Below are positions 5,201 through 46,550 of a stretch of DNA of 51,969 bases, piece after piece; position 1 is the first letter of the stretch; each line of letters begins with the position of its first letter. The position numbers and the translations under genes are program-made. Where the stretch lies: positions 1-51,969 of the IMG/VR virus record IMGVR_UViG_3300027851_000037; one strand, given 5' to 3'. The notes beneath the pieces were generated by a model. The model had not been told where the DNA came from. It saw only the letters and a program-made list of their open reading frames with translations, and did not search any database. The stretch is from a virus.

Positions 5201-5468
5201 ACAGGTCGTCAATCACCCCCAAGGTATCAGGGTTGATATGATAAACCATGTTGTCATAAAAGGCAATATGATTCTCCTGGTCAGCAATCTTATGCAGAAT
5301 GTATTTCTTAAACTCTGTGTTTGCAATTATGGTTTTCTTCTTACCAACCACGCGAAGGTGTTCACCCTGATTGCGAACATTTATCAGCTCCTCGCAAGCC
5401 CCTTCACCGGCAACCTGTCCGGAAGTGCTTCTCACTATGCCCTTGAATTGAATTACCTCATTTCTCAT
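2259..5468 (-). CDS. Large virion protein, stabilisation / tail-hub type
   Basis: This 1069-aa protein has no signal peptide or membrane segment. The first ~500 residues are beta-rich and resemble phage stabilisation proteins (P22 gp10-like and crAss-like tail hub proteins), with stretches such as LRVVGKKKTII and IAFYDNMVYHINPDTLGVIDDLY that suggest propeller-like repeats. The middle (about 515-680) has further strands such as VVFTDRGIYALQQGSG and LLYGRNGISISKALEAD. The last third is rich in Thr, Ala and Ser. It is the second gene of a two-gene minus-strand operon, overlaps the 3' end of the gene before it by 11 bp and ends at a strong terminator. Position beside ejection-protein-like genes supports a tail role; the family name is inferred. 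Confidence 0.6.
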   Translation of the reverse strand: MRNEVIQFKGIVRSTSGQVAGEGACEELINVRNQGEHLRVVGKKKTIIANTEFKKYILHKIADQENHIAFYDNMVYHINPDTLGVIDDLYAASGDVDLYSLNNMLIINDIVAEKMVVYEWVDGAYRVLFQGLPVSPTISVTKEDYLIGGIATDIVGEAFSAKTEAYASEQLFRETLVGSLNKIKHDNEDYNEGYVFVSVNYSLMSGDETKMSNPIMVKLGSFKAKPFGLFFSNCLPLLSMQKLKLSLVQCPDYESHKRLIKSINIYSTLPQSFYELDVKKIRAFGIDNDTLSYPIYDITDHPGLTEKDYKAEDFAKLMYYKQYSIPLNNIEAEYVIKFGADQATEKTMPVDNSGWLKSSGRAFLFNNRLHLYDYKRIFTKEANIFARMNFTGVADAGQEIVQATAQFTINASNKVLSASGLVTTLVKYAADGESAQIWLQDFISFPDSRAESVTLSWTNSSTSKKYTKTIVLNPSKTLNFAFAYVKTSAEIPFATCNRVDTLTTIADSLKIEENTIVLVSSPGAPYHFPVEHSYRIGGEIQDLALMVEQVSEAQQGQYPLVVFTDRGIYALQQGSGLVLYSNLIPISNDSCRRGVVQTKSGVAYIANNSVNLLYGRNGISISKALEADIDKSIRFCNSFSLATKNIALYDIYDYLSKVDFRNYIQGANLFFDSVQEEIIVSNTDYLYSYVFNLREKLWHKITEIFKEGNNRYALRPTTATLQPALPATATIEIPAIVVSPEVQFASQNKCSLTAMDAVIPAGQQLQLIVDSSRLSSYHTQVAMPTYMALEMMLSVIPFIKMNYNNSTKVVDIYSSKAEHAGKVLALKNTTTASEKTATLTTYAQSVTISAKGIGQSITATINAINAQISILSTDDYISITERLKAAIVDAVSTVTVSNYMNLLTISTKATGAAQNNVTIAITPSLHIMMVKTNFTGGRDAGAASIEDSPADIVDLSEEEMEGSNLIHIQTRPNQLNQFGYKKIERAVLRGEIRPSGRPFGAYLFASNDLVTWKLVTGVQTDSNLANLRMQRSKLSYRYYLLVAGGSVDISNDIVLLDMQVEDVLEKKIR

Positions 5469-5973
5469 CTTGAAAATCCTCCTTCATGATTAGTTTATTT
5501 AACTCGTCAAATATTGTCTCTTTTTGTTTGCTGCCCTTCTCTCTTTCCATCTCTCTCATAATCTTTAGTGCAGATGTTATCTTGTGAGGGTCCTTCGAAG
5601 ACGATATAATGTCGTTCAGCCTCTTCATTCCCCTTTGGTATATAAGGTTGGGGTCTGTTATCTCTTCCTCAGGATCCGGTTCAGGAGGCTTTGGTATCAA
5701 TTGGTCTATTACATAAGCCTCGTACTGCTCCTTCCATTTTGCCAATAATTCTTTGTGAACCAATACCCCCTTCGAACATTGCGCAAGACTACCATTGTAA
5801 CGGGTTAGAAGCAGATAAACAATGTTTGTTTTCAGCTCCTCTGTATATTTAAACCCCGGTTCTCCTAACATTTTAGGCATATCATTCTTTTTTGTCAAAA
5901 GTAACCTTGTTGAACTTGCAAATGTGGTCATGTTGCACAGTTTAGGCATCTGTGATTTTGTACTATTGTGCAA
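5458..5973 (-). CDS. Small helical protein upstream of the virion gene, possibly DNA-binding
   Basis: The longest frame encodes 171 aa, but internal Met codons at residues 9 and 15 (MTTFASS) are equally plausible starts, and the longer form would overlap the divergent promoter region. The mid region (YNGSLAQCSKGVLVHKELLAKWKEQYE) reads like a helix-turn-helix of the kind seen in small terminase-like proteins. A Pro/Glu linker (PKPPEPDPEEE) leads to a basic, helical C terminus. The TerS-like gene next to TerL lies elsewhere (25201-25497), so a second TerS is not claimed. It is translationally coupled to the 1069-aa virion gene by an 11-bp overlap. Confidence 0.55.
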   Translation of the reverse strand: MHNSTKSQMPKLCNMTTFASSTRLLLTKKNDMPKMLGEPGFKYTEELKTNIVYLLLTRYNGSLAQCSKGVLVHKELLAKWKEQYEAYVIDQLIPKPPEPDPEEEITDPNLIYQRGMKRLNDIISSSKDPHKITSALKIMREMEREKGSKQKETIFDELNKLIMKEDFQDEK

Positions 5974-5984
5974 AATGCAGGGTT

Positions 5985-6635
5985 ATGAAAAAGAGAGTTT
6001 TGTTAATAGTCAGTATTTGCTTGATAATTAGCGATATTATATGGCCAAGAGATGTCAATGTTAATCAGGCTGTCGTTCCGTTCATCTTAGGAGCGCTCGC
6101 AGTAGCATCATCAGCATACGGAGCAATAAAATCAGGTAACGAAAACAGAAAGAATCAGGGTTTGCTTGACTCATTGAGTGATGAGAATAAAGCAGACTTT
6201 GTTCGTGAGTACCATCGTGATGCTTTGGAGAATCCGGGTTCGAAGGCGTACCTCAAAAGACTTTCGTCAACAATGGAGGACAATAACAAGGTTACTGAGA
6301 ATACAGCAGCAGCCACAGGAGCAACGCAAGAAAATGTCTTGGCAGCAAAGCAGTCTAACAACAGAGTCATGTCTGATGCTGTTTCCGGACTCGTTGAGAA
6401 GGAGGATAACAGACAACAAGTTGTTAAACAAGGCTATCTGCAGAGGAAGCAGGGTCTTGTAGGCACTCAGATGGGACTGAATTCACAGAGAGCGCAAACT
6501 TGGGCTGACACAGCTCAGGGCATTTCGTCCGCAGCCGGCTCTCTTGCCTCTGCGTACATGATGAGCGATGGTAAGTTACTCAATCCTGCGTTTGCAGAAG
6601 AGAAGCCAATTGACGCAACAAAAATCTTCAAATAA
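5985..6635 (+). CDS. Ejection-type internal virion protein (P22 gp7-like position)
   Basis: The start is taken at the MKKRVLL codon (5985) rather than the earlier ATG at 5952, which lies inside the divergent intergenic region. The product has about 216 aa, with a hydrophobic N terminus (VLLIVSICLIISDII), then a second hydrophobic, small-residue patch (VVPFILGALAVASSAYGAI) and a long helical, Gln/Asn/Ala-rich remainder. This composition, and the place at the head of a three-gene set ending in a giant protein, matches DNA-ejection proteins of short-tailed phages (gp7, gp20 and gp16 of P22). No catalytic motif is visible. Assignment is by composition and synteny. Confidence 0.5.
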   Translation: MKKRVLLIVSICLIISDIIWPRDVNVNQAVVPFILGALAVASSAYGAIKSGNENRKNQGLLDSLSDENKADFVREYHRDALENPGSKAYLKRLSSTMEDNNKVTENTAAATGATQENVLAAKQSNNRVMSDAVSGLVEKEDNRQQVVKQGYLQRKQGLVGTQMGLNSQRAQTWADTAQGISSAAGSLASAYMMSDGKLLNPAFAEEKPIDATKIFK

Positions 6636-6643
6636 TAGCTATT

Positions 6644-7702
6644 ATGGGACCGGAAGAGAAAAAAACCATTACCGAGACAGTAGTCTCAAAAAAAGAACCG
6701 ACCGCACAGAGGCAGGTTTATATAGATGATTCCCAGATTAGTTATAAGCCTTTCCAATATCAGGAGGGGCAATCTGTTATTGATGTGCTTGCACAAGCAA
6801 AGCAACACAAGGAGTCACTTGAAGAGAGAGAGAAAAGAACAGCAAGGATGGCCAAGGTAACAGGATGGGGAAACCTATTCAATGCTATTGCCGGACTTGC
6901 AGGCGGAGGTTACACTCAGACTCGATATCAGCCTTCGCCAATCATGCAGCAGTCTCTCAATCAGCTCTCCTCAATCCAGGATGAGAAATACAAGACAGAC
7001 CTGTACTATCAGGAGCTTGCAAGAAAGACCAAGGAAGCAGATAAGCAACTGCAGATGAAAACCCATTACGATCAGCAGAAAGATATTACTACCCTTGACC
7101 AACGAAGAAGAGATTCAAACTTCAAAGCCCTCAATGCTGCCGCCTCCGATGAGTTTAAAGCGGGTGTTCAGACTGTTCAGGAAAAGAGTATTTCTGACTA
7201 TGAAAAGGGCATGAGAGACAGAACCATTTCAGCAAGAGAGGCCTCTGCAAATGCAGCTACCATGAACGCTCAAACCAATGCAGCAGAAGCGGCAAATCCC
7301 GCTACGAAGAAAGGAGTTTTTCTGTCGTATAAAGACAAGGGCGGAAACATGAGAACAATGGGTAAGTCTCAGGCGCAACAGATAATCAATGATGTTGCCG
7401 CAAGATATCCGGGATTGGTTCAGAAGAACGAGAACGAACTTACTCCTGTTGAAAAGGCAATCAAAGAGGACATTGACAATATCCAAAGAGCAATGGGTTC
7501 TGGCCAAGTTGAAGCAACAGACAATCTCATTCGTGCGGTTGCGCTTAAATACATTGCTTCGGGATTTGGTGAGTTTGAGCAATATTTTGACCCAATACAA
7601 AGCAATCAGACAATGCAAGGAGGGACATCAGCTCAGCAACAAAAAGGATCATTCCTTCCTCCAAAAACACAGACAGCAGTTAAGAAAAACCTTTTACAAT
7701 AG
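6644..7702 (+). CDS. Ejection-type internal virion protein, 352 aa
   Basis: It follows the previous gene after 8 bp and precedes the giant gene by 5 bp, so the three are one transcription unit. Its charged, disordered N terminus (about 1-60) leads to the segment KVTGWGNLFNAIAGLAGGGYT (about 76-96), a glycine-rich hydrophobic patch typical of ejected phage proteins that insert in membranes. A long coiled-coil-like, Gln/Lys-rich stretch (about 105-220) follows. The C terminus is polar and Gln-rich. I do not recognise a named family. Expected role: packaged in the head and ejected with DNA to form the periplasm-spanning conduit. Confidence 0.5.
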   Translation: MGPEEKKTITETVVSKKEPTAQRQVYIDDSQISYKPFQYQEGQSVIDVLAQAKQHKESLEEREKRTARMAKVTGWGNLFNAIAGLAGGGYTQTRYQPSPIMQQSLNQLSSIQDEKYKTDLYYQELARKTKEADKQLQMKTHYDQQKDITTLDQRRRDSNFKALNAAASDEFKAGVQTVQEKSISDYEKGMRDRTISAREASANAATMNAQTNAAEAANPATKKGVFLSYKDKGGNMRTMGKSQAQQIINDVAARYPGLVQKNENELTPVEKAIKEDIDNIQRAMGSGQVEATDNLIRAVALKYIASGFGEFEQYFDPIQSNQTMQGGTSAQQQKGSFLPPKTQTAVKKNLLQ

Positions 7703-7707
7703 TAGTT

Positions 7708-10700
7708 ATGGCAAACGAAGCAATCACTCCTATCAGCAACAGGGAGAAACTATACAACAACCTGATTGGAACAGGTAAAGTGTCGGAAGCAGAGATAGGC
7801 ACAAAGGATGATTTTGTTAACTCTGTTACCGATGTGGCCGGCGCAAAGCATCTCTACCAAAATCTTAAATCAAGATTCGACGAAGAGGAGATTGGTGACG
7901 AAGGTAAATTCTTAACCTTCATTACCCCTGATTTCTCAGGTCCTCTTCCTGCCGGCCAGGGAAATATTCCTCTTCCATCCAATCCGGCACAAGCTCCGGT
8001 ATTCACAAACCCTCTTGTTGTAGAAGATAAGGCCCCTGCTCCGCTAAAGAGTAAGGCTTCGGGACCAGACACTATGCAAGACACATCTCCTGCAGATGAA
8101 CAGCAACTATCTATTGACGCATTGCCTTTACCTGACAGAAAGAAGGAGCTTGATGCACAGGCACAGAAAATCCTTGAAGAGAACGAATGGTTGACAAGAT
8201 TTGAACAGATTGAAGGCCGGATAAAAGGTGTTGAGCAAGCAAAACCAACAGCCAAAGGGGAACTCTCTCCTACATCCCTGTTTTACCTGATGAACAAAGC
8301 CAAGGTCAACAAGGAGGATAGAGAGTTTTACGATACCCACCTTGATAAGGCCGAAGAAGCTCGCAGAAGGATGAATGCAGTCAAGATGCAAAAGGACTTC
8401 ATTCAGATTGCCGAAAATCTTGAATCATACGACCCCAAGGGTAGTAAAATAAAGCAGTTTTGGCAGGGTCTTGTCAACACAGGAACAATGAAGGATTTTG
8501 CGACAATGGGGATAACTCAGATTGAACGCGCCTTCAATATTGGCCATCTGCTTCGCAAGGCATCCGAAAATGAAGATCTGTTACTCCCGGAGGAGAAGCA
8601 AGCTGTTGACACATACAATAATCTTCGCAAGATAGAATCTGAGGACAGAGGTTTTTGGCATAAATCGGGGGCTATGTTTCAACAAATGGTTCCTTTTGTT
8701 GCTCAGATGATGCTGACTTCAGGCGCAACAAACGCAGTCAAGGCGGGGCTATGGGCTACCGGAAAAGCAGCAACATTCAAGGCTGCTAAAGAAATAGGAA
8801 AGAAAGAGGCTGTCAACTATGCTGTGCGTAAGGGAGGTCAGGAGGTTGTGGCAAACATGCTGCGCTCGCCTCTCACTACAACCATGTACACAAATCTTGC
8901 GGAGAGAAGATTGCAGAACTATTCTGAAAACGAAGAGGGCAAGGTTGTCCGTAATGATAACACTCTTGCCGGAGATGTTTACAAGGCTTATGTGACCAAT
9001 ACGCTTGAATACCTTACAGAGGGATTCGGAGAGTTAGCAGGAAGGGGCCTCTTGACCCCGTTCATCAACAATAAAAAACTTCTTGGGGTATTGGGTAAAC
9101 AGGCCAATATCCTCGACAAGATTACAGGCAACCCTGTCTATAAGAAGATGGGAGGGTTTCTTGATAAGGCTCAGGTTCACAACATTTCCTCAGAGATATT
9201 CCTTGAAGAGGTTCCAAACGCCCTGCTTTCATCTCTGCTCACAGGCTCTGATGATTATAAACAGCTTGCGGACCCTGAGTTCTATGGTTCAATAGCTCTA
9301 AATACAGCCCTCCTGGGAGGAACCTTTACAGGCATAAAGCTAGCATCGGGAGGAGTTGCCAACAACATTGAGAAAAACAGGATATCCAATCAGGCCAAGT
9401 CTTCTCTTTCAAACTTTGCTTCAAGCATAGCCACAATTGGGGACGAGAAGGTTCGTATAGCTGCCGAGAACCTACAAGCTTCCATACAAAATTCAGAATA
9501 CTTCAACCCTGATAATAAGTCCGAAGGGCCTGTTTTTGCAGCCATGCAGAATCTAAAGGAGGTCATTGGAACAGATAGTCAGTCGTATGAAGATGTTATT
9601 TCTGCGGCATCGAAAGCAGCAATGGATAATGCTGTTAAGACCGGGGCTTATCAGGGAATTGAAGCACTTGCCGAGAGCGAGATGGGAGGACCTGTCTTTC
9701 ATAAGAGAATACCGAATTCTGTTGTTATTGGAGTCAACAGAGAAGACAAGCAATTCTATATCACAGATACACTAGAGTCAGAACTTGACAAAGAACTGAT
9801 GGTTGTCAGAGATGTTGAGACCGGAGAGGTGTCAACAGTCACTTCAGGAGAGTTTGTTGATGTTCAAATGATAGATAAAAAGAGTTGGTTAGACTCTTGG
9901 TTGCAGTCGAGAGAGACATTGAAGCCTGTTCAAGATGCTGTAACCGCTGAAAATGCAGCAATGCAGCAAGTAGAGCAGCAGGAGATGGCCAACGAACAAC
10001 CAATCTCAATGGAGGAGATTGAACCTGGGAAGCAGTTTCGTATTGGTGAAGAGAAGGTAACTGTCATTGATGCCACCGAAGAGGACATTTTCGTTGTTGA
10101 CAAGGAGGGTAACGAGCACAGGGTTGAGCTGGGCGCACTTGAAAGAGTTCCTTCAATCACCCCGGCCACAGAACAGAGCATAGCTCCTGACCAGACAGGT
10201 TCTGTTGAGCAACCACAAGAGGTTGATGCGCCATTGACAAGCGAAATCAGCGCGGAAACTCCTGCCTCAGTAGAGACCCCTTCAACTGAAATCGTTTCTG
10301 AACAAATATCTTTTCCTGTTGATAAGGAAGGACAAATTGACTATGCACAGATAACAGAGCCAAAGATGTATGCTGAGGCCCTTAAATCTGAGTTTGGGGA
10401 AGAAGCGCCTGAGATGTTGGATGATTTGCTTGCTGAACAGAAAGAGGCTCTTAAAAAGGCTCAAAAAGCCACTAATCCCATTGAGCGCAGAAGGAAAGTA
10501 AAGGCTATCAACACAGAGATGGCAAAATTGAATGAGATTCGCGGGTTTATCATACCTCAGCAGTCTCAATCAGAGGCAGCAGAGGCCCCTATGTCTGCTC
10601 CAATGGTCCCACCGGTTACCAAGCAGCCCGGCAAGAGACCAAAGCTAACTCCTTTCCAACAGGAGTTGCAATCATTTGAGTCGCCTCAATCAAAAGAGGA

Positions 10701-13700
10701 GGCTGTTGCCTTCGCTCTTTTGGAGGGCGGATTGAGATTAAAGTTGAAAGATTCTCCCGGAACAAAGGGTTTTGCCAAACACTTAGGGTTGAAGGTCAAT
10801 AGTACAGACATGAGAAGGTATTTTGGCCTGCAGAACGAGAAAGTAGGACTAACACCTGAGAAATTTGCTCACTACCTGAAGGAGAACGACACATACAGCA
10901 TGTTTCAAAACATGGATGAGATGGAGGTTTTGGATGTTGTACTTGATGTGATGGGTAAGGTTTATTCAAAAAGAGCTGCCCTTGATTTCATAAAAGACAG
11001 CAGGGAGGGTGTTATTAAGGCCGAAAGCAATCTTGCTGAGAGACCAGACCTTACAAGCGAAGAAATAGACTACATAGTTGATGATTATTTTGCAGAAAAT
11101 TACTTATCTTTATCGCAGGAAGAGTCTTCTCTGATAGATAATGTTTTCATCTCTGCTGCACAGCAAGAGGAGTACGATAGGCTCCTGAATTCAGAAGATC
11201 TACCAGAGGACACAAACCAATTAAATACTTTACAAAATGACACCGGAAGAGATATTACAGCAGGAAATGACCGGGGAGAAATTCGTTCAGATGCTTCAGA
11301 AGGCATTGCCGAAAGCAATCAAGGCGAAGATGGTGTCTCGGGAGGAGTTGACACAGGCGACACAGGACGAGGACTTCAAGATGAAGCTAGTTCTGAGAAT
11401 CCTGACCTGGTACAGCAAAGAGGCGTAACAGGGGAGCAACCTGTTCAAGAATCAATACAATCTGTTGAACCGGAACTTTCTCCGGTTAAGAAGTCTGCAA
11501 TTGATAAAATCAATACTTCGTATGCAGACAAAATCAAAGAATTAGAATCGAAAAAGAAGGAAATCCTTTCTGCCAAGGAGCGTAAGTTCGCCTCTCTTGA
11601 CAAGAGAAATGGCCTATTTGGTGACACCAATCCTGAGTTTGACAATAACCCATTAGCAGGGGAGTTTGTGTATAACGAAGAGGTTGTTGCTGCTGCATTA
11701 AGACCATTCGATGAGCAGCTTGCTCAGATTGGCAAGGAGATTGAATCTGCAGAATCGAAAAGGGCTGCTGATATCGAAGATACCAAAAATCAAATCGACC
11801 TGTTTGAAGAAAACCTCGCAATCGAAGAGGCCAAGGTTGATGTTAATGCTTCCGATAAACAAAAGGAGGCCGGTAATTATCAGAAGGGGCATATTCAGGT
11901 GCAGGGATTTAATGTTTCCATAGAGAATCCAAGAGGTTCAACCCGCTCCGGCACAGACAGAGATGGCAAGAAATGGGAAATAACCATGAATAATACTTAT
12001 GGCTATATCCTTGGAACCACAGGCAAAGATGCCGACCATATTGATGTATTTCTAGGTGATAATCCTGTTGCAGAAAACATATTTGTTGTTGACCAGGTTA
12101 ATCCTGATGGCTTGTTTGATGAACATAAGGTTATGCTTGGATTTGATGATATCGAGTCTGCTAAAGCTGCATACCAATCAAACTACAAAGAGGGATGGCA
12201 AGGCCTTGGAAACATAACCGCTATTTCTGTTGAGGGATTCCGCGAATGGGCCGAAAATGGCACAAGAAGAATCAAACCATTTGCTGATTATAGGCAAGTG
12301 CAGTCAGAGCAAGCGACAACTGAAGAAGCTCCTGTTCAAGAGGCATCGCAACCTGAAGCATCTATTCAGGAGCAGCCATCATCAACACAAAAGATTGAGG
12401 ACTTTGGAGAGAAAATACTTGGCGCAAAAAAAGACTTGCGTGCCGGGTTGAAAGAACAGGCATCTCGCGAGATGAGCGATGTTCTTAAAGAGGGCTTTGC
12501 CAAGGTGTTTCCGCTTCAAGATTATGCAAAATTAGTTGAATTGGGAATTACTACACCTGAAGAGGCGGCGCTCTTGCAGTATATGAGGAGCAACATAGGC
12601 GCAAGGCCAAGCGGACGATATCCATCAAAAATAAACAAGTGGATGATGAGTGTTCGGGCGTATAAAGATGTTCTTGATTGGCTCAGCGATAAACAGTCAT
12701 TCGCAGATCAACACGATGGAATGTCGTTCATGGAATTAATGAGAACCCATCTCCATAAGCTAGCAGTAGAGGAGATTGACAACTACATTAAAACCTTGTT
12801 GGCCCTCGGATTTCCTGAGAGTAAGGTTAATCTTGGTAGCTATTCAATAAGGCGATTTATCGGGCGTAGTACATATACCATAGTCAACGGAAGCAGAATA
12901 ATCAATGACTATAAAACCTTTGATGAGGCTGTTGCCGGGCTGAAGTATATCATCAGCTCACTTCAGGAAAAACAAGCCGGGGTTAAGTTTGACATGTGGT
13001 ATATGAAAAACAACCCGAAGAACATTATCATTGGGAAAAAAGTTGCTGCCGGTAAATTTATTACTCTAAAGGATGGTTTTGCATCATCTAAAGAAGCATC
13101 AGAATACATTGAACAAAACAGGGAGCAACTTGAAAAGATGCTTGAAGAGGCAAAGATTGTTCCTCAGGAAAGGCCTGATGGTAATAAACCAAGAATTGGA
13201 TTTGATTACCGCAATGGTAAAGATGCCACACCTGAGATGTATCAAGAGGCCTTTGGGTTTAGAGGGGTCCAATTTGGAAATTATGTTGAGCAGAGTAAGA
13301 GGCAAGATGATTTGAATGAGGCCTATGATGCTCTGTTTGATTTGGCCAAAGTATTAAATATCCCTACAAAGGCCATCTCTCTCAACGGAGAGTTAGGCCT
13401 CGCGTTTGGTGCAAGGGGTAGTGGAGGAAAAGATGCCCCTCTTGCTCATTATGAGGCCGGTCAGGTTGTGATAAACCTTACTAAGAATAAAGGAGCCGGC
13501 TCTCTTGCTCACGAGTGGTTTCATGCACTTGACAATTACTTTGAGAGGATGAGAGGAAGGTCAAGTCAGATGATAACAGAAGGCTATGCAAGACCACAAA
13601 GGCAGGCTGATGGAGATGTTAACACCATTGTCAGGGACGAGGTTCTTGAAGCATTCAAAAATGTCGTTAAGTCAATTAATAACTCCGCTCTTAAAAGTCG

Positions 13701-16700
13701 TTCTGATAAGTTAGACGAAGCCCGAAGCAAACCATATTGGGGAACCATAGTTGAGATGGCAGCAAGGTCTTTTGAGTCTTATGTTTACCGAAAACTTGCT
13801 GAAGATGAGATAAGAAACGATTATTTAGTTGCCTTCAGAAAGATTGGCGAGTATATTAATCAGGCAGGAGCAAGCGAAGAAAAATATCCTTATCCAACCA
13901 ATGAGGAGGCGAAGACTATTGATGCCGCTTTTGAGGGTTTATTTCAGACGATCAAAACCAAGACCGAAGGTGACAATACTCTTTTATATCGCGAACAATA
14001 CTTCTATTCACCAACAGAACAGGCCCTGAATGTAATCAAACAGGAAAAAGGCACTCCAGAGCAATGGAAGGCCATGCTATTGAAAAATGGCGCAAAAGAG
14101 GCTGAAATGGATTGGATGGGATGGGAAGATTTTGTTGATGAGAAAAAATCTTTGACAAGGGCCGACATCCAAGAGTGGATTGACCTTAACAGGATTGAGG
14201 TGCAGGAGGTGGAGAAAGGTGTTAAAAATCTTGAATTTAAAACAAAGGATGTAAAAAGTGTTGAAAGAGACACTCGTCCTGAATTTGCTAATAATTGGTT
14301 TGTAAAAATTGGTAGAAACGACATTCAAGTAAGAGCAGAGAATGATGTGGAGGCAGTACAACTTGCTTTGCAAAAGGCAAACAAATTTAAAGAAAATTCT
14401 ACCAGATACTCACAATACCAACTCCCTGGCGGAGAGAACTACAAAGAGTTGTTATTGACAATGCCTGCTGTTGAAGAGTCTTGGAAAAACATTGACGATT
14501 TTAAACAGGCAATGCGTGACAAGTACGGAGAAGGATGGAAACCTAAGATGTCAAAAAAAGAAAGTAATGCTTTTGAATCTCTACTAAATGGAGAAACTAA
14601 ACGACCTCAACAGGTATTTGCATCATCCCACTTCTATGAGTCTAATATTCTTGCTCACATCCGCTTTAATGAGAGAATAACCCCATCAGGGGACAGGATT
14701 CTTTTTATTGAAGAGATTCAGTCTGATTGGGCGCAGCAAGGGAAGAAGAAGGGTTTTAATCCAAATGAAAAGGCCGCTAAAGCAAAACTTGAAAAAAGGA
14801 TTGCAAAAATTGATGCTGAATTATTAAGATTAACCGAGCAGGCGCAAAAGGAAGGACTTCGTGAAGGTGCATCCACAACAGAGTGGAGGGAGTTTGAAAA
14901 TGGAAACCAATTGACTCCTGAAATTTACAGATTAGAGCAGGCTATTATGACTGTTAGAAATAACAGGGAGTATGATTCAATAAACGCTGAGATTGAAGCC
15001 ATCAAAGAAAAACAACGGAAAATTGGAGCTGAAAAACTTGCGCTTATTAATGATCGTAAAGCTGCTGAATCAGAGTTGAGAGAATTAAACTTTGTTAATT
15101 CAAGTGGAGTTCCTGACATGCCTTTCAAGACCACCGACCAATGGGTAAACCTTGCACTCCGTAGGGCATTGATTTACGCTGCTGAGAATGGTTTTGACAG
15201 GGTTGCCTGGACTAATGGCGAGATGCAGGCCAAGCGTTATGACTTGAGCAAGTACATTGATAGTGTAAAATATAAGAAAAACCAAGACGATACCTATGGA
15301 GTTTATGTTTTCGCTAATGATGGAAGTCATCCTTTAGATAACGACTCTATGACAATTTCCGAGGTAGAAAACACCTTGGGGAAAGAGATTGCTCAAAAAA
15401 TATCTGATGGAGAAGGTTCGGAAAGTGGTCCATTCTTGGTTTTGTGGCCTAAAGATATGAAGTTTGGAGGCGAAGGCATGAAGGCTTTCTATGACAACAT
15501 TATTCCTGCTCAGGTTAACAAGATTGGTAAAAAATTTGGAGCCAAGGTCGAGACAACTAGCATCCCTGTAATTGACAAAGAGGTTTATGACCATGATACC
15601 GAAGAGGTAACCCTTACCCCGGAAGCAGAGGAGATGTACCAAAAATTTATGGACTCTGTTGCGGAAGAGGATGGCTCTTACTCTGTTGAGCAGTTTGTCG
15701 CCGACATGAAAAGTGTGGGCTATGAAGTTCAGATTAAAGAAGATGGTGAGCCAAACAACATAAAGAAGATTTACAATGGCGAAACATATTCGGTTCAGTC
15801 TATTCCTATCACTCCTGCAATAAGAGAACAGGCTGCAATAGGGATGCCTTTGTTTAAGGAAAACAAACCTTTTGCCGAGAGGTCAGTAAGCGAACTAGCC
15901 AATGAAGCGCAGGAGTTTGCGAAGAGTCTTGGGGTGAAAGTGAATATTCTAGCTGATTCGTCTGAATTCCCTTCGTTAAGTCCTCAGAGAAAAGCAAGAG
16001 GATGGTATAGCCCTGTCAGAGATGAGATAACCATTATCCTTGCTAACCACGAAAGCATGAAGGACCTTCAGGCAACGATTCTTCACGAAGCAGTTGGCCA
16101 CAAGGGATTGAGGTATATCCTTGGGGATAGTTTTAACTCCACTATGGAAAAAGTTTTTGATTCTCTTCCAAGAGAGACAAGGGCTGACTATTATGCACGA
16201 TACGCTAAGAAGGTCCTTGCAGCCGAAGAGTACATGTCAAATCTAGCTGAAGAGAGCATCGAGCCTTCGCTCTGGGAGAAGATAAAAGGCTTCATCAGAG
16301 ATGCCTTCCGTTCAATAGGCGTTAATCTTATTCTTACAGATTCAGACCTTGCATATATGCTTTGGAGGTCAAAGAATCGCCTGCAGAACATTGAAACAGC
16401 CACTTCTGCTGAGGTGATGAGGGATATCTCCTTTGCCGAATTTGCAAAAGCAAGAATCAAGGGATGGGGAGAGGTTCTATTCCGTAGCAAAGACTCAAAT
16501 GGAGACCTGTTTGTACTCGATACAAACAGCATTACCCTAACCAAGGGGGAGAAGTTTATTGAGGCCATGCAAGACAGAATGATTTCAGGTTCCAAACTCA
16601 TAGCCGAGGTCAAAAAGAGAGGCGGAAAAGTAGGAACATTTTCAAACTTCGTTTCAGAAGAGACAAGATCTTCATCAAGGGCAAAAGCTGAGTTAGATGA

Positions 16701-19641
16701 TTTCGAAGATAATTATTTCAAACCCCTCCTTTCATTTGTAGAGAAGTGGGTAAAAGCCGGTAAGAGCCTAAAAGAGATTGAACTCTACATGATGGCCAAG
16801 CATGCTCCTGAAAGGAACCGATTCATTGTTAAAAGACAAGCGAGAGAGACAATCCTCACTAATTATGAATACGACCTCAAAAGAGCAGAAAACAAACGAA
16901 AGAAAGCCACCACAGAGGCCGTAATTGAGGGAATAGATAAGACTATTGAGAACATTCAGGCACAAATTAACTTCATAAAAAATGAGGAAAATGCTTCATT
17001 GGTAAGTAGTCTTGTTGAGAACGCCTATGATGTGGCGTTCTTTGGAGAGGGCAAAATGGCCATCCCGGATTATCTCGACACATTTAGTTACTTACTTGCC
17101 CTGAATTATCAAAAGAAGGTTATTTCATCTCTTGAAAATACTTACAGGTCCGAGGAGGGGAATAACCGCTCCGGAATGACAGACGAAAATGCCAACTCTA
17201 TTGTTGATGAGTTTGAAAAGAGCATAGGTGACACAGCCGAGATTTCCAAATTTTGGAAAGCAGTCAATAAAGCAACTCATTTCTCACTTGAAAAGAGCCG
17301 TAAATATGGCCTAATCAGTACCGATGTTTACAATGCAACGAAAGGAATTTATAATTATTATGTTCCGCTTCGCTCATGGGCTGAGAAGGAGAATATTGAC
17401 TATCAGGATGTATTTGGAGAGAATTATCTTGGAAAAGAGATTTTAAACTCAGTTAACAAGCATTCTAAAGGCCGAACTTCACTTGCAGACAATCCCCTTG
17501 GGTTTATTGCTTCTATGGCTGAGTCGTCAGTTGTTGCAGGCAGCAAGAACGAGGTTAGAAAGAACGCATGGAGGCTAATCAAGAATAACTCTGATATGAA
17601 CGACCTATTCCTGATAAAACAGGCATGGGAGGTGAATATTGCTGACCAGGGAGATGAACCTATGTGGGAGGTGACTTTTGAGCCGCCAACACAAGAGATG
17701 CTTGACCTTGGATTAGCCAGAGCGCTTCCTCCAAATGATGCCTATAATTGGCATAAATCAAGAGGAGAGTTAGACATGCACCAGGTTCCGGTATTTATTG
17801 ATGGAAACAGGGTGTTGATGGAATTCAAGGGTCCTATTGGGGTTCGTGTAGCGGCAGCTATCAATGGGGAAAATGTTGTAAGATGGAAAAATACTGATGG
17901 CATTGCCCGGTTTACGAGGATAATGGCAGCTCTCAAAACATCAAAAAACCCAGACTTTATGCTTACCAACTTTATCAGAGACTTTTTCTTTGGTAACATG
18001 GCCTATGCAAATCGTGGAGGAAACCCTTTAAAACTGACTAAAAACCTCAACAGAGCATGGATAGCTATCCATAAAGACTTCACCAAGGGGAAAGAGGATT
18101 CATACCTGAAGAGTATGTATGAAGATTTCAAGATGAATGGCGGAGAGACCGGATATGTTCACATGTTAGGCGAGCAGAACTATAAAAAGAAGATTGAGAA
18201 AATGGTTAAGGAGGCTAATCAGGCTTCTAAAATCAGCCCTACTGTCTTTGCAAAGAAAACCTTCAAAGTTTTAAATCATGGTCTGGATTACTTGGCCCAT
18301 ATGTCTGAAAATGCAATGAGGTTTGCAACATATCTGACAGAAGTTGAGAGCCTAATGGAAGGCGAGGGCGCGACCAAGCCAACTGAAGCCATGAAGAAAC
18401 AGGCGGCTCTTGCAGCAAAGGATGTGACAACTAACTTCAACCGCAAGGGTAAATGGAGCTCACAGATAAATTCATTCTACGCCTTCTTCAATGCTTCTGT
18501 TCAAGGTTCAGCAAACTACATAAAACTAGCAAAGGAGAACCCTGCAAGGTTCATTACCGCAAACCTTGCTTTGATGTCAATACGGACACTTCTTACTGCA
18601 TGGTGTCTGTCTTTGATTGGAGGCGATGATGATGATTCGTATGAGGCATTATCTGATTACATCAAGGAGAACAACTTTGTCATTCCTGATGGAGGGGGAA
18701 AATTTATCACCATCCCTCTTCCACATGGATCTAGAGCGCTCACTAATTTTGGGCCGCTTGCATTAGAGGTCATGGCCGGCAAAAAAGATATTGGCAAAGC
18801 TCTTGACACATATACCAAAAATATGATTTCAGAACTCTCTCCAATCAACCTTGTCGGACTTGATAAGAGCGCATTCATCCCAAGGAACGCAGGAGAGGCA
18901 TTGTTGACCGCTCTTCCAACAGCTATAAGACCATTTGCGGAGACTGCTCTTAACTTGGATTTTATGGGAAGGAGCATTGAGCGAAAGAACTTCATTGTTA
19001 CGGGTGATGGCTATGTTCCAAGATTTATGAACGCTTATGCCAACACTAACCCTATACTCATTGGAATGTCAAGGCAAATAAATAAGTGGTGGGGAGGCAA
19101 TGATAGCCGGAGCGCAGCAGTTCAGGTGAGCGATAATGGTGATGTAAGCCGCTCTGTGGTAGGAGAGTTATTTGATATCAGCCCTGCCTATACAGAACAT
19201 ATCCTCGAAGGTTATTTTGGAGGACTTGGAAGATTTGTCAATGACCTATACAAGACAGGGCGAAGCATCGTAAAGGGCGAAACACCGGAGATGCAAAATA
19301 TACCTGTGTTCCGCAGACTCTACCAAGAGCCATACGAAAACAAAGCATGGCAGAGTTATTTCGAGACAAGGACCCGCGTAAACGATATCGAAAGAGCCAT
19401 CAAGTCTGCTAAGGATGAAAAACTTACAGAAGAGTATGTAAAACTCAATAATTATTATAACATATCCTTGATTTCTACATTCGGGACCTACAATGATATA
19501 ATTAAAAAAATATCTGAGAATATTAAGACTCTTCCTTCAAGCGATCCACGAAGGAAGCAAGCTGAGAAATCAATGGACGATTTGGTTGAGAGAATGCACG
19601 AAGAGATTAAGGCAATAGATAAACTACATAATAAGAAATAA
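7708..19641 (+). CDS. Giant 3977-aa polyvalent protein, probably ejected with DNA
   Basis: This is the largest gene by far, about 23% of the window. Segments that read like known polyvalent-protein domains, in order: an inorganic-pyrophosphatase-like domain (about 1391-1531, GHIQVQG...DADHIDVFLG...DEHKVMLGFD); an LPD1-like domain (about 1841-1945, FGFRGVQFGN...LNGELGLAFGARG) ending in AHEWFHALDNYF; a module QYQLPGGENYKELLL...FIEEIQSDWAQQGKKKGF (about 2235-2360) paired with DQWVNLALRRALIYAAENGF (about 2475-2580); a second zincin-like site LHEAVGHKGLRYI (about 2792-2802); and an LPD38-like C-terminal domain (about 3560-3650, NFNRKGKW...FFNASVQG). Such proteins (Iyer and co-workers) are proposed to enter the host with phage DNA and modify host targets. 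The N-terminal ~600 residues contain hydrophobic patches that could aid membrane passage. Domain limits are by eye. Confidence 0.85.
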   Translation: MANEAITPISNREKLYNNLIGTGKVSEAEIGTKDDFVNSVTDVAGAKHLYQNLKSRFDEEEIGDEGKFLTFITPDFSGPLPAGQGNIPLPSNPAQAPVFTNPLVVEDKAPAPLKSKASGPDTMQDTSPADEQQLSIDALPLPDRKKELDAQAQKILEENEWLTRFEQIEGRIKGVEQAKPTAKGELSPTSLFYLMNKAKVNKEDREFYDTHLDKAEEARRRMNAVKMQKDFIQIAENLESYDPKGSKIKQFWQGLVNTGTMKDFATMGITQIERAFNIGHLLRKASENEDLLLPEEKQAVDTYNNLRKIESEDRGFWHKSGAMFQQMVPFVAQMMLTSGATNAVKAGLWATGKAATFKAAKEIGKKEAVNYAVRKGGQEVVANMLRSPLTTTMYTNLAERRLQNYSENEEGKVVRNDNTLAGDVYKAYVTNTLEYLTEGFGELAGRGLLTPFINNKKLLGVLGKQANILDKITGNPVYKKMGGFLDKAQVHNISSEIFLEEVPNALLSSLLTGSDDYKQLADPEFYGSIALNTALLGGTFTGIKLASGGVANNIEKNRISNQAKSSLSNFASSIATIGDEKVRIAAENLQASIQNSEYFNPDNKSEGPVFAAMQNLKEVIGTDSQSYEDVISAASKAAMDNAVKTGAYQGIEALAESEMGGPVFHKRIPNSVVIGVNREDKQFYITDTLESELDKELMVVRDVETGEVSTVTSGEFVDVQMIDKKSWLDSWLQSRETLKPVQDAVTAENAAMQQVEQQEMANEQPISMEEIEPGKQFRIGEEKVTVIDATEEDIFVVDKEGNEHRVELGALERVPSITPATEQSIAPDQTGSVEQPQEVDAPLTSEISAETPASVETPSTEIVSEQISFPVDKEGQIDYAQITEPKMYAEALKSEFGEEAPEMLDDLLAEQKEALKKAQKATNPIERRRKVKAINTEMAKLNEIRGFIIPQQSQSEAAEAPMSAPMVPPVTKQPGKRPKLTPFQQELQSFESPQSKEEAVAFALLEGGLRLKLKDSPGTKGFAKHLGLKVNSTDMRRYFGLQNEKVGLTPEKFAHYLKENDTYSMFQNMDEMEVLDVVLDVMGKVYSKRAALDFIKDSREGVIKAESNLAERPDLTSEEIDYIVDDYFAENYLSLSQEESSLIDNVFISAAQQEEYDRLLNSEDLPEDTNQLNTLQNDTGRDITAGNDRGEIRSDASEGIAESNQGEDGVSGGVDTGDTGRGLQDEASSENPDLVQQRGVTGEQPVQESIQSVEPELSPVKKSAIDKINTSYADKIKELESKKKEILSAKERKFASLDKRNGLFGDTNPEFDNNPLAGEFVYNEEVVAAALRPFDEQLAQIGKEIESAESKRAADIEDTKNQIDLFEENLAIEEAKVDVNASDKQKEAGNYQKGHIQVQGFNVSIENPRGSTRSGTDRDGKKWEITMNNTYGYILGTTGKDADHIDVFLGDNPVAENIFVVDQVNPDGLFDEHKVMLGFDDIESAKAAYQSNYKEGWQGLGNITAISVEGFREWAENGTRRIKPFADYRQVQSEQATTEEAPVQEASQPEASIQEQPSSTQKIEDFGEKILGAKKDLRAGLKEQASREMSDVLKEGFAKVFPLQDYAKLVELGITTPEEAALLQYMRSNIGARPSGRYPSKINKWMMSVRAYKDVLDWLSDKQSFADQHDGMSFMELMRTHLHKLAVEEIDNYIKTLLALGFPESKVNLGSYSIRRFIGRSTYTIVNGSRIINDYKTFDEAVAGLKYIISSLQEKQAGVKFDMWYMKNNPKNIIIGKKVAAGKFITLKDGFASSKEASEYIEQNREQLEKMLEEAKIVPQERPDGNKPRIGFDYRNGKDATPEMYQEAFGFRGVQFGNYVEQSKRQDDLNEAYDALFDLAKVLNIPTKAISLNGELGLAFGARGSGGKDAPLAHYEAGQVVINLTKNKGAGSLAHEWFHALDNYFERMRGRSSQMITEGYARPQRQADGDVNTIVRDEVLEAFKNVVKSINNSALKSRSDKLDEARSKPYWGTIVEMAARSFESYVYRKLAEDEIRNDYLVAFRKIGEYINQAGASEEKYPYPTNEEAKTIDAAFEGLFQTIKTKTEGDNTLLYREQYFYSPTEQALNVIKQEKGTPEQWKAMLLKNGAKEAEMDWMGWEDFVDEKKSLTRADIQEWIDLNRIEVQEVEKGVKNLEFKTKDVKSVERDTRPEFANNWFVKIGRNDIQVRAENDVEAVQLALQKANKFKENSTRYSQYQLPGGENYKELLLTMPAVEESWKNIDDFKQAMRDKYGEGWKPKMSKKESNAFESLLNGETKRPQQVFASSHFYESNILAHIRFNERITPSGDRILFIEEIQSDWAQQGKKKGFNPNEKAAKAKLEKRIAKIDAELLRLTEQAQKEGLREGASTTEWREFENGNQLTPEIYRLEQAIMTVRNNREYDSINAEIEAIKEKQRKIGAEKLALINDRKAAESELRELNFVNSSGVPDMPFKTTDQWVNLALRRALIYAAENGFDRVAWTNGEMQAKRYDLSKYIDSVKYKKNQDDTYGVYVFANDGSHPLDNDSMTISEVENTLGKEIAQKISDGEGSESGPFLVLWPKDMKFGGEGMKAFYDNIIPAQVNKIGKKFGAKVETTSIPVIDKEVYDHDTEEVTLTPEAEEMYQKFMDSVAEEDGSYSVEQFVADMKSVGYEVQIKEDGEPNNIKKIYNGETYSVQSIPITPAIREQAAIGMPLFKENKPFAERSVSELANEAQEFAKSLGVKVNILADSSEFPSLSPQRKARGWYSPVRDEITIILANHESMKDLQATILHEAVGHKGLRYILGDSFNSTMEKVFDSLPRETRADYYARYAKKVLAAEEYMSNLAEESIEPSLWEKIKGFIRDAFRSIGVNLILTDSDLAYMLWRSKNRLQNIETATSAEVMRDISFAEFAKARIKGWGEVLFRSKDSNGDLFVLDTNSITLTKGEKFIEAMQDRMISGSKLIAEVKKRGGKVGTFSNFVSEETRSSSRAKAELDDFEDNYFKPLLSFVEKWVKAGKSLKEIELYMMAKHAPERNRFIVKRQARETILTNYEYDLKRAENKRKKATTEAVIEGIDKTIENIQAQINFIKNEENASLVSSLVENAYDVAFFGEGKMAIPDYLDTFSYLLALNYQKKVISSLENTYRSEEGNNRSGMTDENANSIVDEFEKSIGDTAEISKFWKAVNKATHFSLEKSRKYGLISTDVYNATKGIYNYYVPLRSWAEKENIDYQDVFGENYLGKEILNSVNKHSKGRTSLADNPLGFIASMAESSVVAGSKNEVRKNAWRLIKNNSDMNDLFLIKQAWEVNIADQGDEPMWEVTFEPPTQEMLDLGLARALPPNDAYNWHKSRGELDMHQVPVFIDGNRVLMEFKGPIGVRVAAAINGENVVRWKNTDGIARFTRIMAALKTSKNPDFMLTNFIRDFFFGNMAYANRGGNPLKLTKNLNRAWIAIHKDFTKGKEDSYLKSMYEDFKMNGGETGYVHMLGEQNYKKKIEKMVKEANQASKISPTVFAKKTFKVLNHGLDYLAHMSENAMRFATYLTEVESLMEGEGATKPTEAMKKQAALAAKDVTTNFNRKGKWSSQINSFYAFFNASVQGSANYIKLAKENPARFITANLALMSIRTLLTAWCLSLIGGDDDDSYEALSDYIKENNFVIPDGGGKFITIPLPHGSRALTNFGPLALEVMAGKKDIGKALDTYTKNMISELSPINLVGLDKSAFIPRNAGEALLTALPTAIRPFAETALNLDFMGRSIERKNFIVTGDGYVPRFMNAYANTNPILIGMSRQINKWWGGNDSRSAAVQVSDNGDVSRSVVGELFDISPAYTEHILEGYFGGLGRFVNDLYKTGRSIVKGETPEMQNIPVFRRLYQEPYENKAWQSYFETRTRVNDIERAIKSAKDEKLTEEYVKLNNYYNISLISTFGTYNDIIKKISENIKTLPSSDPRRKQAEKSMDDLVERMHEEIKAIDKLHNKK

Positions 19642-19642
19642 T

Positions 19643-21634
19643 ATGAAGAGGTTGAGTAAGGCTGATATTAAAGTTGTCAGCAGAATTAAGGTTAATGCTC
19701 CAAGCCCTACCATTCCGGCCGGAACCAATTTCCGGAGCGAAAAAAAATACTTGGACATACTTCATCAGGCAAACGAACATTATGACTCTTTCCTTGATAT
19801 TCGCGCTCGCTCAGCAAGAAACAAGAGGTATTACAGGGGGAACCAATGGAGTGATACTCTTGTTGTCAATGGTGAGCGAATGACAGAGGAGGAGTATCTG
19901 CTCAGGCAAGGTAAGGCCCCGCTTAAACAAAACCTTATCAAGCCTCCTATTCGAAACATTATTGGTCAGTACAGGAGTAATCCTTTCAAGTCTGTTGTCT
20001 ATGCTAGAAACAGAGAGGACCAGGCAGCATCAGAGATGATGACAGTTGCCTTAGAGGGAGTCTATGCTGCAAATGATGGAAAGAAAAGAGATGCGAGGCA
20101 GTTGGAGAACTTTTTGATTAAATCGGCAGCCATTTACAGTACATCTTATTCTTTTGATTCGGAAAGGATGAGGCCAATCCCGATGTTCCGGGCAGTTCCT
20201 TTGAATCGTTTCTTTTGTGACTCAAACATGGAGGATGTGAATGGTGAAGATATCAAGATTATCGGAGAGATTGTTGACCTCTCTCTGTTGGAGCTTTTAT
20301 CAACCTACGCAAAAAACATGAGCGAAGAGGAAGAACTTAGGAGAATTTATGGTTCTGCGAGACCATTTGCTGAAGGGAGGAGTTTTGATGAGTCCAAACT
20401 TGAAGCGATGTCATTCCTGATACCTCAGAGCTTCAACAGATGCAGGGTTATTAAGGTCTGCATAAAAGAGGGTTCTTGGAAGCTATTAGTTCACGATTAT
20501 GCCGATGCCTCTTATGAATTGAGAAGCATTGAAGATAAACTCTTAATTGATGCGGAGATAAACGCCCGGAAGATAATGTCTGAGGAGAACGGAGTAGAGA
20601 TACCTCAGATTGAGTACGAAGAGAAGTTCATTGAAGAGTGGAGATATTATCACCTTACACCTACCGGCCATTGTCTTTGGGAGTCAGATAATCCATACTC
20701 GCATAATTCTCACCCCTATGTGTTTGAGTTTTACCCTATGTTGGATGGGGCTGTTTGGAGTATGGTTGAGGATATGATTGACCAACAGAAGATGGTTAAT
20801 AGAATGGTTATCCTTCAAGACTTCATCATATCTGCATCAGCAAAAGGTGTTCTCTTGGTCCCTGAAGAGGCTATTCCGGAAGGAATGACTATTGAGGATT
20901 TTGCCGAAGAGTGGGTTAAGTACAACGGGGTTATTAAAATAAAGACTAGGACAGATAAGGGCCTGGATGTTGAGGTTCCACAACAGATAGTTGCTCAAGC
21001 AGCTAATCTTGGAATCAGCGACATGATAAATCTGCAGATTAAGTTCATGCAGGATATCACAGGTGTTCACTCCGCTATTCAGGGCAAACAAGCCTCTGCC
21101 GGTACTCCGGCTGCTCTATATGCTCAGGAGAGCGCAAACGCCTCTCTTAATATCCTTGATTACCTTGAGACCTTTGCTTCTTTCTGTCGCAGGAGAGATT
21201 ACAAGATTGTTCAAATCATCAAGCAGTTCTATAAAGACAAACATTTTCAGGTTAACGGAGGAAGAAATATCTCTGAGAAGGCCAAGTGGTACGACCCTGA
21301 TGTTATTCGAAACATTGAGTTTGACAACGAGATTTCCAAAGGCTCAGATACTCCTTCTTACAGAATGGTTGTGGATGATATGCTTTGGCAGATGCTCAGT
21401 TCAAGGTTTATCAGTATCGAGATGTTTCTTGAACACTCTTCATTCCCATTCTCTGATAAACTACTTGCATCAATAAAAGCCCAGAGAGAGCAGCTTCAAA
21501 GCGGCCAATCCGTTGAAGGCATGTCTCAGGAGATGATTCAGCAGCTTCAGAGCGAAGTGCCTCAATCAGACCCTCGCAACCTTGCTATGGCAGAGAGGAT
21601 ATATACAGGCAACATGAAACCTATAAAGCAGTAA
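19643..21634 (+). CDS. Portal protein
   Basis: The 663-aa product has the size and sequence feel of P22-type portals. The N-terminal ARSARNKRYYRGNQWSD and the segment LKQNLIKPPIRNIIGQYRSNP are the typical 'wing' start, in which arrays of Arg and a 'N.I...v....G..R.NP' motif precede the clip and stem. The region VEDMIDQQKMVNRMVILQDF (about 376-395) resembles the stem/crown helices, followed by FMQDITGVHSAIQGKQ. It starts one base after the giant gene's stop, so translation is probably coupled. A portal in front of a separate terminase module fits a headful-packaging short-tailed phage. Confidence 0.85.
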   Translation: MKRLSKADIKVVSRIKVNAPSPTIPAGTNFRSEKKYLDILHQANEHYDSFLDIRARSARNKRYYRGNQWSDTLVVNGERMTEEEYLLRQGKAPLKQNLIKPPIRNIIGQYRSNPFKSVVYARNREDQAASEMMTVALEGVYAANDGKKRDARQLENFLIKSAAIYSTSYSFDSERMRPIPMFRAVPLNRFFCDSNMEDVNGEDIKIIGEIVDLSLLELLSTYAKNMSEEEELRRIYGSARPFAEGRSFDESKLEAMSFLIPQSFNRCRVIKVCIKEGSWKLLVHDYADASYELRSIEDKLLIDAEINARKIMSEENGVEIPQIEYEEKFIEEWRYYHLTPTGHCLWESDNPYSHNSHPYVFEFYPMLDGAVWSMVEDMIDQQKMVNRMVILQDFIISASAKGVLLVPEEAIPEGMTIEDFAEEWVKYNGVIKIKTRTDKGLDVEVPQQIVAQAANLGISDMINLQIKFMQDITGVHSAIQGKQASAGTPAALYAQESANASLNILDYLETFASFCRRRDYKIVQIIKQFYKDKHFQVNGGRNISEKAKWYDPDVIRNIEFDNEISKGSDTPSYRMVVDDMLWQMLSSRFISIEMFLEHSSFPFSDKLLASIKAQREQLQSGQSVEGMSQEMIQQLQSEVPQSDPRNLAMAERIYTGNMKPIKQ

Positions 21635-41496: not shown

Positions 41497-42330
41497 TTAT
41501 TGATTAAAAATGTTGTAGTCTTTATCTACATTACAATTCGCATCCGGGAAAACATCGAATTGTTTTCTGATGGATTCCTTCCAATACACCTTTGCATGGT
41601 AATTGGCAAGAGTATTTACAACCCCAAGATTAAAGCCGCGTAACCTATCATAAAATGATTTATCAACCTTTTGTCCGGACATCAAACCGATTTTGTATAA
41701 GTCGCAGAATCCTTTTGTTTTCCGAATCATTTCAAGACTGCTCTCAAAGTCGATTATCGGCTCAATGCTTGCAAAAGTCTTAAACCCGGCATCGTGGAGT
41801 TTCTTCATTGCCTCAATTCGCTCCTGGTTGGTTGATGCACCCTTTTCAAGTTCATCGTGGCCGGTAAGGGTGAAGCCGAAAGCAATAAGTTTACTAAATG
41901 CCATGAATTTTACTTTTTCATAGGCTTTGTTTTCGTCTTCAAAAATCACATGAATACTATCTACACGCTTTGTGAGAATTTTAACTGGAACTTTGTGTTT
42001 AATGGAAATGCCAATAGCATCTTTTGTCAATCCAACAGTTTCAGGCAGCATCGGATCTGTTGAGAAACTAAAGAAAATACCATGCTTTTGAAGCTCCGGA
42101 AGGTTCGCCTGGAGTTCTTTGTAAAACACATCAATTGCGTGAGTTTCGTCCTTAAAACACTTCTTCAAGGTAGGCTTTTCACCCCCCAGGATCATTGCGC
42201 CCCTGCCTTTCTTAAGGTAGCAGTATTCGCACCCATTCGAGCAGCCAACATAAAAGTTGCATGCCCATTTCGCGTATTCAGCAGCTTTCCCCGCCGGCTG
42301 ATATATCGCTTTTCCTTTAAAGTTTGCCAT
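41497..42330 (-). CDS. Radical SAM protein
   Basis: The 277-aa protein has the iron-sulphur binding motif C30-x3-C34-x2-C37 (YVGCSNGCEYCYLKKG), preceded by C24 in AKWACNFYVG. Downstream, FFSFSTDPMLPETVGLTKDA, KHKVPVKILTKRVDS, FGFTLTGHDELE and FASIEPIIDFESSLEMI show the successive beta-alpha repeats of the partial TIM barrel that binds SAM. The pattern is nearest to spore-photoproduct-lyase-like and Rv2578c-like proteins, without proof of either. It could repair or modify DNA, or modify another molecule. It lies in a coupled early operon 2 bp after the zinc-motif gene. Confidence 0.85.
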   Translation of the reverse strand: MANFKGKAIYQPAGKAAEYAKWACNFYVGCSNGCEYCYLKKGRGAMILGGEKPTLKKCFKDETHAIDVFYKELQANLPELQKHGIFFSFSTDPMLPETVGLTKDAIGISIKHKVPVKILTKRVDSIHVIFEDENKAYEKVKFMAFSKLIAFGFTLTGHDELEKGASTNQERIEAMKKLHDAGFKTFASIEPIIDFESSLEMIRKTKGFCDLYKIGLMSGQKVDKSFYDRLRGFNLGVVNTLANYHAKVYWKESIRKQFDVFPDANCNVDKDYNIFNQ

Positions 42331-46549: not shown

Positions 46550-46550
46550 T

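Follow-up and report, generated by a model that had tools for sequence, protein, structure and literature searches.

What a single protein of 3977 aa, encoded directly upstream of a phage portal gene, does for its virus is the question raised by this locus. The window, i.e., the whole stretch of DNA analyzed, comprises the 51,969 bases of one virus record, and the virus infects Bacteroidota bacteria; residue numbers below refer to the giant protein (gene 3). The giant gene occupied 11,934 of the 51,969 bases (23%), in line with the "nearly a quarter" of the sequence-only reading, and formed one intact ORF with an ATG start and zero internal stops. At the composition of the window, a stop-free run of 3977 codons has a chance of ~10^-107. 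Relative to the closest relative, from the MAG Bacteroidetes bacterium 41-46 (portal 79% identical), pN outside the swapped part was 0.18–0.38, with 0.18 for the C-terminal module (aa 3155–3977), and synonymous sites were near saturation. The ORF cannot be a chance product. We consider it likely, with a probability of roughly 80%, that the giant is an ejection protein doubling as a carrier, in a cassette like gp52-gp51-gp50 of coliphage N4, with a constant C-terminal unit and exchangeable cargo.

The cassette and the adjoining portal gene are arranged as follows.

5952–6635, + strand: gene 1, small ejection-type protein of 227 aa from a GTG start (homology to gene 1 of relatives)
6644–7702, + strand: gene 2, mid-size ejection-type protein of 352 aa (relatives have a gene of comparable size in the syntenic position)
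7708–19641, + strand: gene 3, giant polyvalent protein of 3977 aa, third of the set (ORF scan, Pfam, family profiles)
19643–21634, + strand: portal protein, P22-type (Pfam PF16510, 3.2e-37; PHROG portal, 2.4e-63)

The four genes, starting at 5952, 6644, 7708, and 19643, were all on the + strand with intergenic gaps of 8, 5, and 1 bp, which upholds the earlier claim of two ejection-type genes in front of the giant and a portal behind it. The small, mid, giant order is that of an N4-type cassette, and the giant, 1 bp before the P22-type portal with an SU10-type major capsid gene further downstream (at 26461), is encoded beside late virion genes. Gene 1, which may alternatively start with the ATG at 5985, encodes a protein with a hydrophobic N-terminus and a helical remainder; it was homologous to gene 1 of BKO1-TP3 (E 2e-11) and BF1-TP2 (E 1e-7), and 71% identical to that of the closest relative. 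The gene 2 product was rich in Ala and Gln, devoid of Cys, and 58% identical in the closest relative, with no significant family match.

Elsewhere in the window, a terminase-like gene was found on the opposite strand (23196–25229), and an integrase gene at 133–1536, so the phage is probably temperate. A short tail would be expected from the portal and the relatives. Just 5' of the cassette lay a 1069-aa ORF (2259–5468, - strand) with no credible match in Pfam or PHROG, and two genes of the early region, both on the - strand, encoded a radical SAM protein (41497–42330) and a C5 cytosine methylase (44825–46585).

Comparison shows the same gene order in other genomes. The trio with a giant as its third member also occurred in the closest relative, in BS-TP4, BKO1-TP3, and BF1-TP2, and in three further loci (L023, L034, and L055). 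In BF1-TP2 the trio and the portal gene were apart, showing that the three genes move as a unit independent of the portal. The giant was immediately 5' of the portal in 99 of the 106 loci holding both, these loci partly overlapping and thus not representing 106 independent contigs. Among 80 bacterial-genome loci with more distant portal relatives, picked solely for their portal and covering no more than 6 kb of flanking sequence, the giant was immediately 5' of the portal in 35. The remaining 45 had no giant there (some had one within 1.5 kb, others were short contigs), and this gene neighborhood would count against the ejection-cassette explanation. MAGs titled Mollicutes, Staphylococcus, and Bacillota (L279, L282, and L294) held Bacteroidota-type portals, which are probably binning errors. 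A protein scan of viral contigs with the whole giant revealed no close relative.

The following features were recognized within the giant, all on the + strand.

8659–9348, + strand: aa 318–547, weakly conserved N-terminal region common to Bacteroides phage giants (blastp, profile)
11857–12252, + strand: aa 1384–1515, InPase domain with intact DxDxxD motif (Pfam PF18823, 2.4e-57)
12901–13962, + strand: aa 1732–2085, LPD5, zincin 1, and LPD1 cargo block (Pfam, NCBIfam, motif)
14002–14217, + strand: aa 2099–2170, small helical domain without a name (co-occurrence survey, AF2 model)
14347–15660, + strand: aa 2214–2651, QYxLPGGENYxEL module (QY module), predicted GNAT-like fold with helical insert (AF2, VIA-align)
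15910–16407, + strand: aa 2735–2900, zincin 2, with HEAVGH at 2793 and EEY at 2840 (motif, AF2)
17170–19638, + strand: aa 3155–3977, constant C-terminal module (C-module), putatively for delivery (profiles, JC1 homology, conservation)
17887–18603, + strand: aa 3394–3632, stretch aligning with N4 vRNAP 3198–3464 (hhalign, VIA-align)
18562–18624, + strand: aa 3619–3639, conserved hydrophobic, membrane-like segment (alignment of relatives)
18631–19308, + strand: aa 3642–3867, LPD38 (Pfam, 3.2e-34)

Several unrelated predicted enzyme domains are thus joined in one chain (Pfam, zincin motifs, zincin 2 fold), and the giant belongs to a known class, the polyvalent proteins. The part of the published account available (Iyer et al., 2017; PMC5512222) describes for phages the same joining of unrelated enzyme domains beside virion genes, and the InPase, LPD1, LPD5, LPD38, and zincin MPTase domains, including HExxxH variants, are common to both. 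The pyrophosphatase-like and LPD38-like domains read from the letters were recovered by Pfam (E values above), as were LPD1 (aa 2002–2085, 2.1e-18) and LPD5 (aa 1732–1848, 1.2e-24), the latter not named before. Both zincin-like sites were likewise found, the first being a classical HEWFH at 1935 within a match to NCBIfam CLCA_X (1829–2082), with an E of 1.2e-42, yet bits below the CLCA_X cut-off. PDB sequence searches of the giant gave a clear match for the InPase domain only (9b41_L, gp19 portal C-terminus, E 3.3e-32); in chain L of that solved structure, residues 635–763 are the same InPase domain fused to a phage portal. The helical domain at aa 2099–2170 usually co-occurred with the QY module in the family survey, and candidate linkers were at about 815–861, 1193–1234, and 1523–1576. 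Family membership would predict PPi or nucleotide hydrolysis, acyl transfer, and peptidase roles for the cargo; PADLOC matched no defense family in the giant.

Two regions had been thought to match nothing. For aa 2850–3400 this did not hold, as zincin 2 ends and the C-module begins within it. For aa 1–1000 it held for 1–300 and 560–830, with almost no matches beyond close kin, and failed for 318–547 (blastp 2e-8 to BS-TP4; iterated profile with 11 members) and 846–1097, which recur in relatives. Against 50,697 phage records, aa 1–999 had no match at E 0.01.

PHROG and GenBank labels on relatives would make the giant a DarB-type antirestriction protein: the giant of BKO1-TP3 carries the label, and the PHROG 'DarB-like antirestriction' family matched aa 750–1534 of the window's giant. 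However, the InPase region falls within the strongest part of this match, and the N6 methylase and helicase domains on which the label is based in JC1 gp69 and in BS-TP4/BKO1-TP3 were not found by Pfam or PHROG. The label was rejected for the giant, and such a function is very improbable compared with that of an ejection protein carrying cargo.

Profiles of the giant's segments, run over the collected loci, detected zincin 2 and the C-module in 124 ORFs each, the InPase domain in 36, the QY module in 24, LPD5-zincin 1 in 12, and the N-terminal pieces in just a few. The C-module was the most conserved part of the giant relative to the closest relative (73% identity), in which an ADP-ribosyltransferase domain, ART-PolyVal, stood at the place of the LPD5-zincin 1-LPD1 block. 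The giants of BS-TP4 and BKO1-TP3 were 80% identical over about 2390 aa of the N-terminal part and 62% over the C-terminal part, with unrelated middles containing different helicase types. These two Bacteroides phages and BF1-TP2 resembled the window in the portal (37–39% identity), trio, C-module, and InPase region, but their giants, of 3633–5553 aa, had different cargo (Strawberry-notch or SNF2 helicases, ART, PBECR5). Comparison among phages shows zincin 2 and the C-module as the constant part, and the cargo upstream as exchanged from phage to phage. The C-module was nearly missing from plasmids (3 of 72,556).

Another cargo set was seen in the BF1-TP2 giant (L004, 9225–20126), in which aa 1614–1871 carry ART-PolyVal next to a PBECR5 nuclease. 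In Pseudoalteromonas phage Y3 (L006, 7143–20517), the giant's end was 100% identical to the start of an ORF labeled ADP-ribosyltransferase, indicating an overlap or duplication in the Y3 record.

A giant that is packaged but mainly structural, sitting core- or scaffold-like on the portal and organizing packaging with degenerate enzyme domains, would also fit a constant C-module encoded by a gene directly adjoining the portal, and the N4 C-terminal region is needed for encapsidation according to the available part of PMC5512222. It is unlikely: catalytic motifs are kept in the cargo (HEWFH, HEAVGH/EEY, InPase DxDxxD), and different enzymes occupy the cargo's position in other phages, features for which a pure scaffold would have no use. 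Under the carrier reading, the constant end and the exchanged middle belong to deliverer and delivered.

The HEAVGH of zincin 2 is an HExxxH variant, of the kind described for polyvalent proteins (PMC5512222, in the part available). Of 57 aligned rows, 51 retained the HE...H pattern, and a downstream EEY was common. In an AF2 model of aa 2735–3934 (pLDDT 80.9), the zincin 2 part matched ArdC 6sna (Z 6.2, 112 residues) and other zincins (to Z 5.4); an HExxH-type motif, a downstream Glu, and a zincin fold are thus predicted together, as in zincin metallopeptidases. The hydrophobic segment recurred in 68 of 75 relatives, being the most hydrophobic stretch in 71.

The earlier placement of the giant as third in a set of ejection genes gained support from the recurrence of the trio and from a homologue in virions of Burkholderia phage JC1. 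Giant aa 2742–3042 and 3155–3942 were homologous to JC1 gp69, the latter region aligning with gp69 3724–4479 at E 9e-33. In CsCl-purified JC1 virions, gp69 was the second-highest scoring protein with 51 unique peptides, and gp67 and gp68, encoded just before it, were likewise present (PMC9144972). The Bcep22-like gp67-gp68-gp69 trio has the same small, mid, giant order, with LPD38 at the same end and a hydrophobic segment just on its N-terminal side. However, the JC1 portal gene is distant from its trio, and gp69 has methylase/helicase cargo together with a lytic transglycosylase-like domain at its N-terminus; the window cassette yielded no peptidoglycan hydrolase, and hhalign detected no sequence relation of genes 1 and 2 to gp67 and gp68. 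Comparison thereby provides a virion-packaged homologue.

These data bear on whether the giant might instead be a late-made intracellular protein, missing from the virion and directed at superinfecting phages or at some process within the cell that makes it. Polyvalent-type domains also exist as solo cytoplasmic proteins (PMC5512222, in the part available), but the high rank of the JC1 homologue among virion proteins and the giant's co-operonic position with ejection-type genes and the portal make this distinctly improbable, and favor an ejected carrier.

The QY module, for which no name could be given from the letters, had no match in Pfam or NCBIfam, and none of 83 QY-module members had a credible Pfam match; viral contigs held at least 580 relatives (580 of the 600 pattern matches listed). 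Its AF2 model was confident (pLDDT 87.5), with a long helical insert (aa 2352–2465) that attracts coiled-coil matches. VIA-align returned KacT (Z 9.4), TacT2 (9.2), GCN5 (8.8), and NatD (8.6), and among the matches listed, those other than long helices were all GNAT-type (Z 8.0–9.4, 119–146 residues, rmsd 3.2–4.6). The top Foldseek match was an acetyltransferase with an E of only 0.2, and sequence comparison with two phage GNATs was weak, one ranking first over just 19 columns and the other unmatched. The pattern helix-AENGFDRVAWT followed by Q-A-x-R-Y would fit GNAT helix 3, strand 5, and the following A..Y. Although like these GNAT acyltransferases in fold by structure comparison, the module differs in having no sequence-family match, a long helical insert, and a conserved Q-x-G-x3-G after the strand instead of the classical CoA-binding Q/RxxGxG/A motif. 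As that motif was not seen, the module is filed as GNAT-like only; from its model, it looks like a widespread family without a Pfam name, GNAT-like rather than a GNAT. The available part of Iyer et al. (PMC5512222) reports only two GNAT families, RimI-type, and there the QY module is not recognized.

N4 gp50-gp51-gp52 is a proven ejection set, described by a beads-on-a-string model, and the gp50 C-terminal domain has a zincin-like part and a large helical part reported without structural relatives (PMC12633501). The window resembles N4 in the three-gene order and in a giant with a zincin-like and then a large helical C-terminal domain; the C-module and gene 1 also show weak, collinear similarity to gp50 and gp52, respectively. 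It differs in that the RNA polymerase cargo is absent (Pfam, PHROG, and NCBIfam scans), setting the giant apart from Schitoviridae vRNAPs, in the remoteness of the similarity, and in the lack of a detectable sequence relation between gene 2 and gp51.

In hhalign, the LPD38 module scored 35.6 with the N4-family C-terminal domain (224 columns, P 0.006, probability 6.5%); all 60 block shuffles scored lower (best 32.3), as did the reversed control (23.9). An earlier, smaller comparison had scored 28.7, at shuffle level (similar values in 2 of 40 block shuffles), and the score rose to 35.6 after the families were widened. VIA-align of the C-module model with 9pnr was weak (Z 5.2, rmsd 5.0, 178 aligned) and began by pairing aa 3409 with N4 3216, a register that differs from that of hhalign by at most about three residues. 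Among the structure comparisons, N4 appeared in VIA-align only; Foldseek against the PDB gave no match of any kind below E 1 for the C-module, a search in which long multi-domain models can mask single-domain matches. A profile trimmed to the last part of the N4 family ranked two LPD38 giants, L025 and L034, highest among 2045 ORFs (E 0.001 and 0.025), reversed sequences beginning at E 1; the untrimmed profile ranked another protein first. With the untrimmed profile, an ORF of a QY-module locus (L246, 1–7440) reached E 6e-6 over several weak stretches, which may be coiled coil. Compared with 19 N4 late proteins, gene 1 ranked gp52 first (27.5 versus 20.5 for the next; shuffles at most 20.2), and its top, non-significant PDB match was an N4 gp52-like chain in the same region (E 0.24). 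Singly these links are weak (hhalign probability 6–18%, VIA Z 5.2), but four weak results converge and tip the balance toward a common origin of the C-module and the N4 vRNAP C-terminal domain. We lean toward regarding zincin 2 plus the LPD38 C-module and that domain as one ancient delivery unit.

By analogy with N4, the gene 1 product would form the outer-membrane part of a conduit and the gene 2 product its periplasmic part or tunnel. The giant, packed in the head, would be the last to exit, its beads unfolding one after another on the way through tail and conduit. The C-terminal ~1250 aa of the giant (zincin 2 and the LPD38 module, with the hydrophobic segment) may serve packaging and inner-membrane passage, while the middle (InPase domain, LPD5-zincin-LPD1 block, and GNAT-like module) would be exchangeable cargo. 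Zincin 2 lies between cargo and C-module and is therefore a good candidate to free the cargo, which would be released or activated in the cytoplasm, possibly by this means. N4 vRNAP is packaged uncleaved (PMC5512222, in the part available), which by analogy would count against the explanation with cleavage. We infer that the cargo of this phage is delivered into the cell and assists the virus during the first minutes of infection, with a putative host-takeover or anti-defense role.

LPD38 is listed as phage-only in the available part of Iyer et al. (PMC5512222), which contains no delivery module, no cargo exchange on LPD38, and no tie to the N4 C-terminal domain. Relative to the portions of the published accounts available, the division of the giants between a constant delivery module and cargo that is exchanged, the conserved hydrophobic segment, the GNAT-like reading of the QY module, and the N4 link are new. 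The division separates deliverer from delivered in these giants. If correct, the C-module would be a handle on very large proteins passing a roughly 35 Å channel, and the exchangeable middle would supply injected enzymes for testing, such as the widespread QY module. The N4 C-terminal domain would be tied to a large phage family, and N4 vRNAP would count among the polyvalent ejection proteins, with a polymerase for cargo. Many short-tailed phages would then inject varied enzymes, the GNAT-like QY family among them, via one three-gene cassette.
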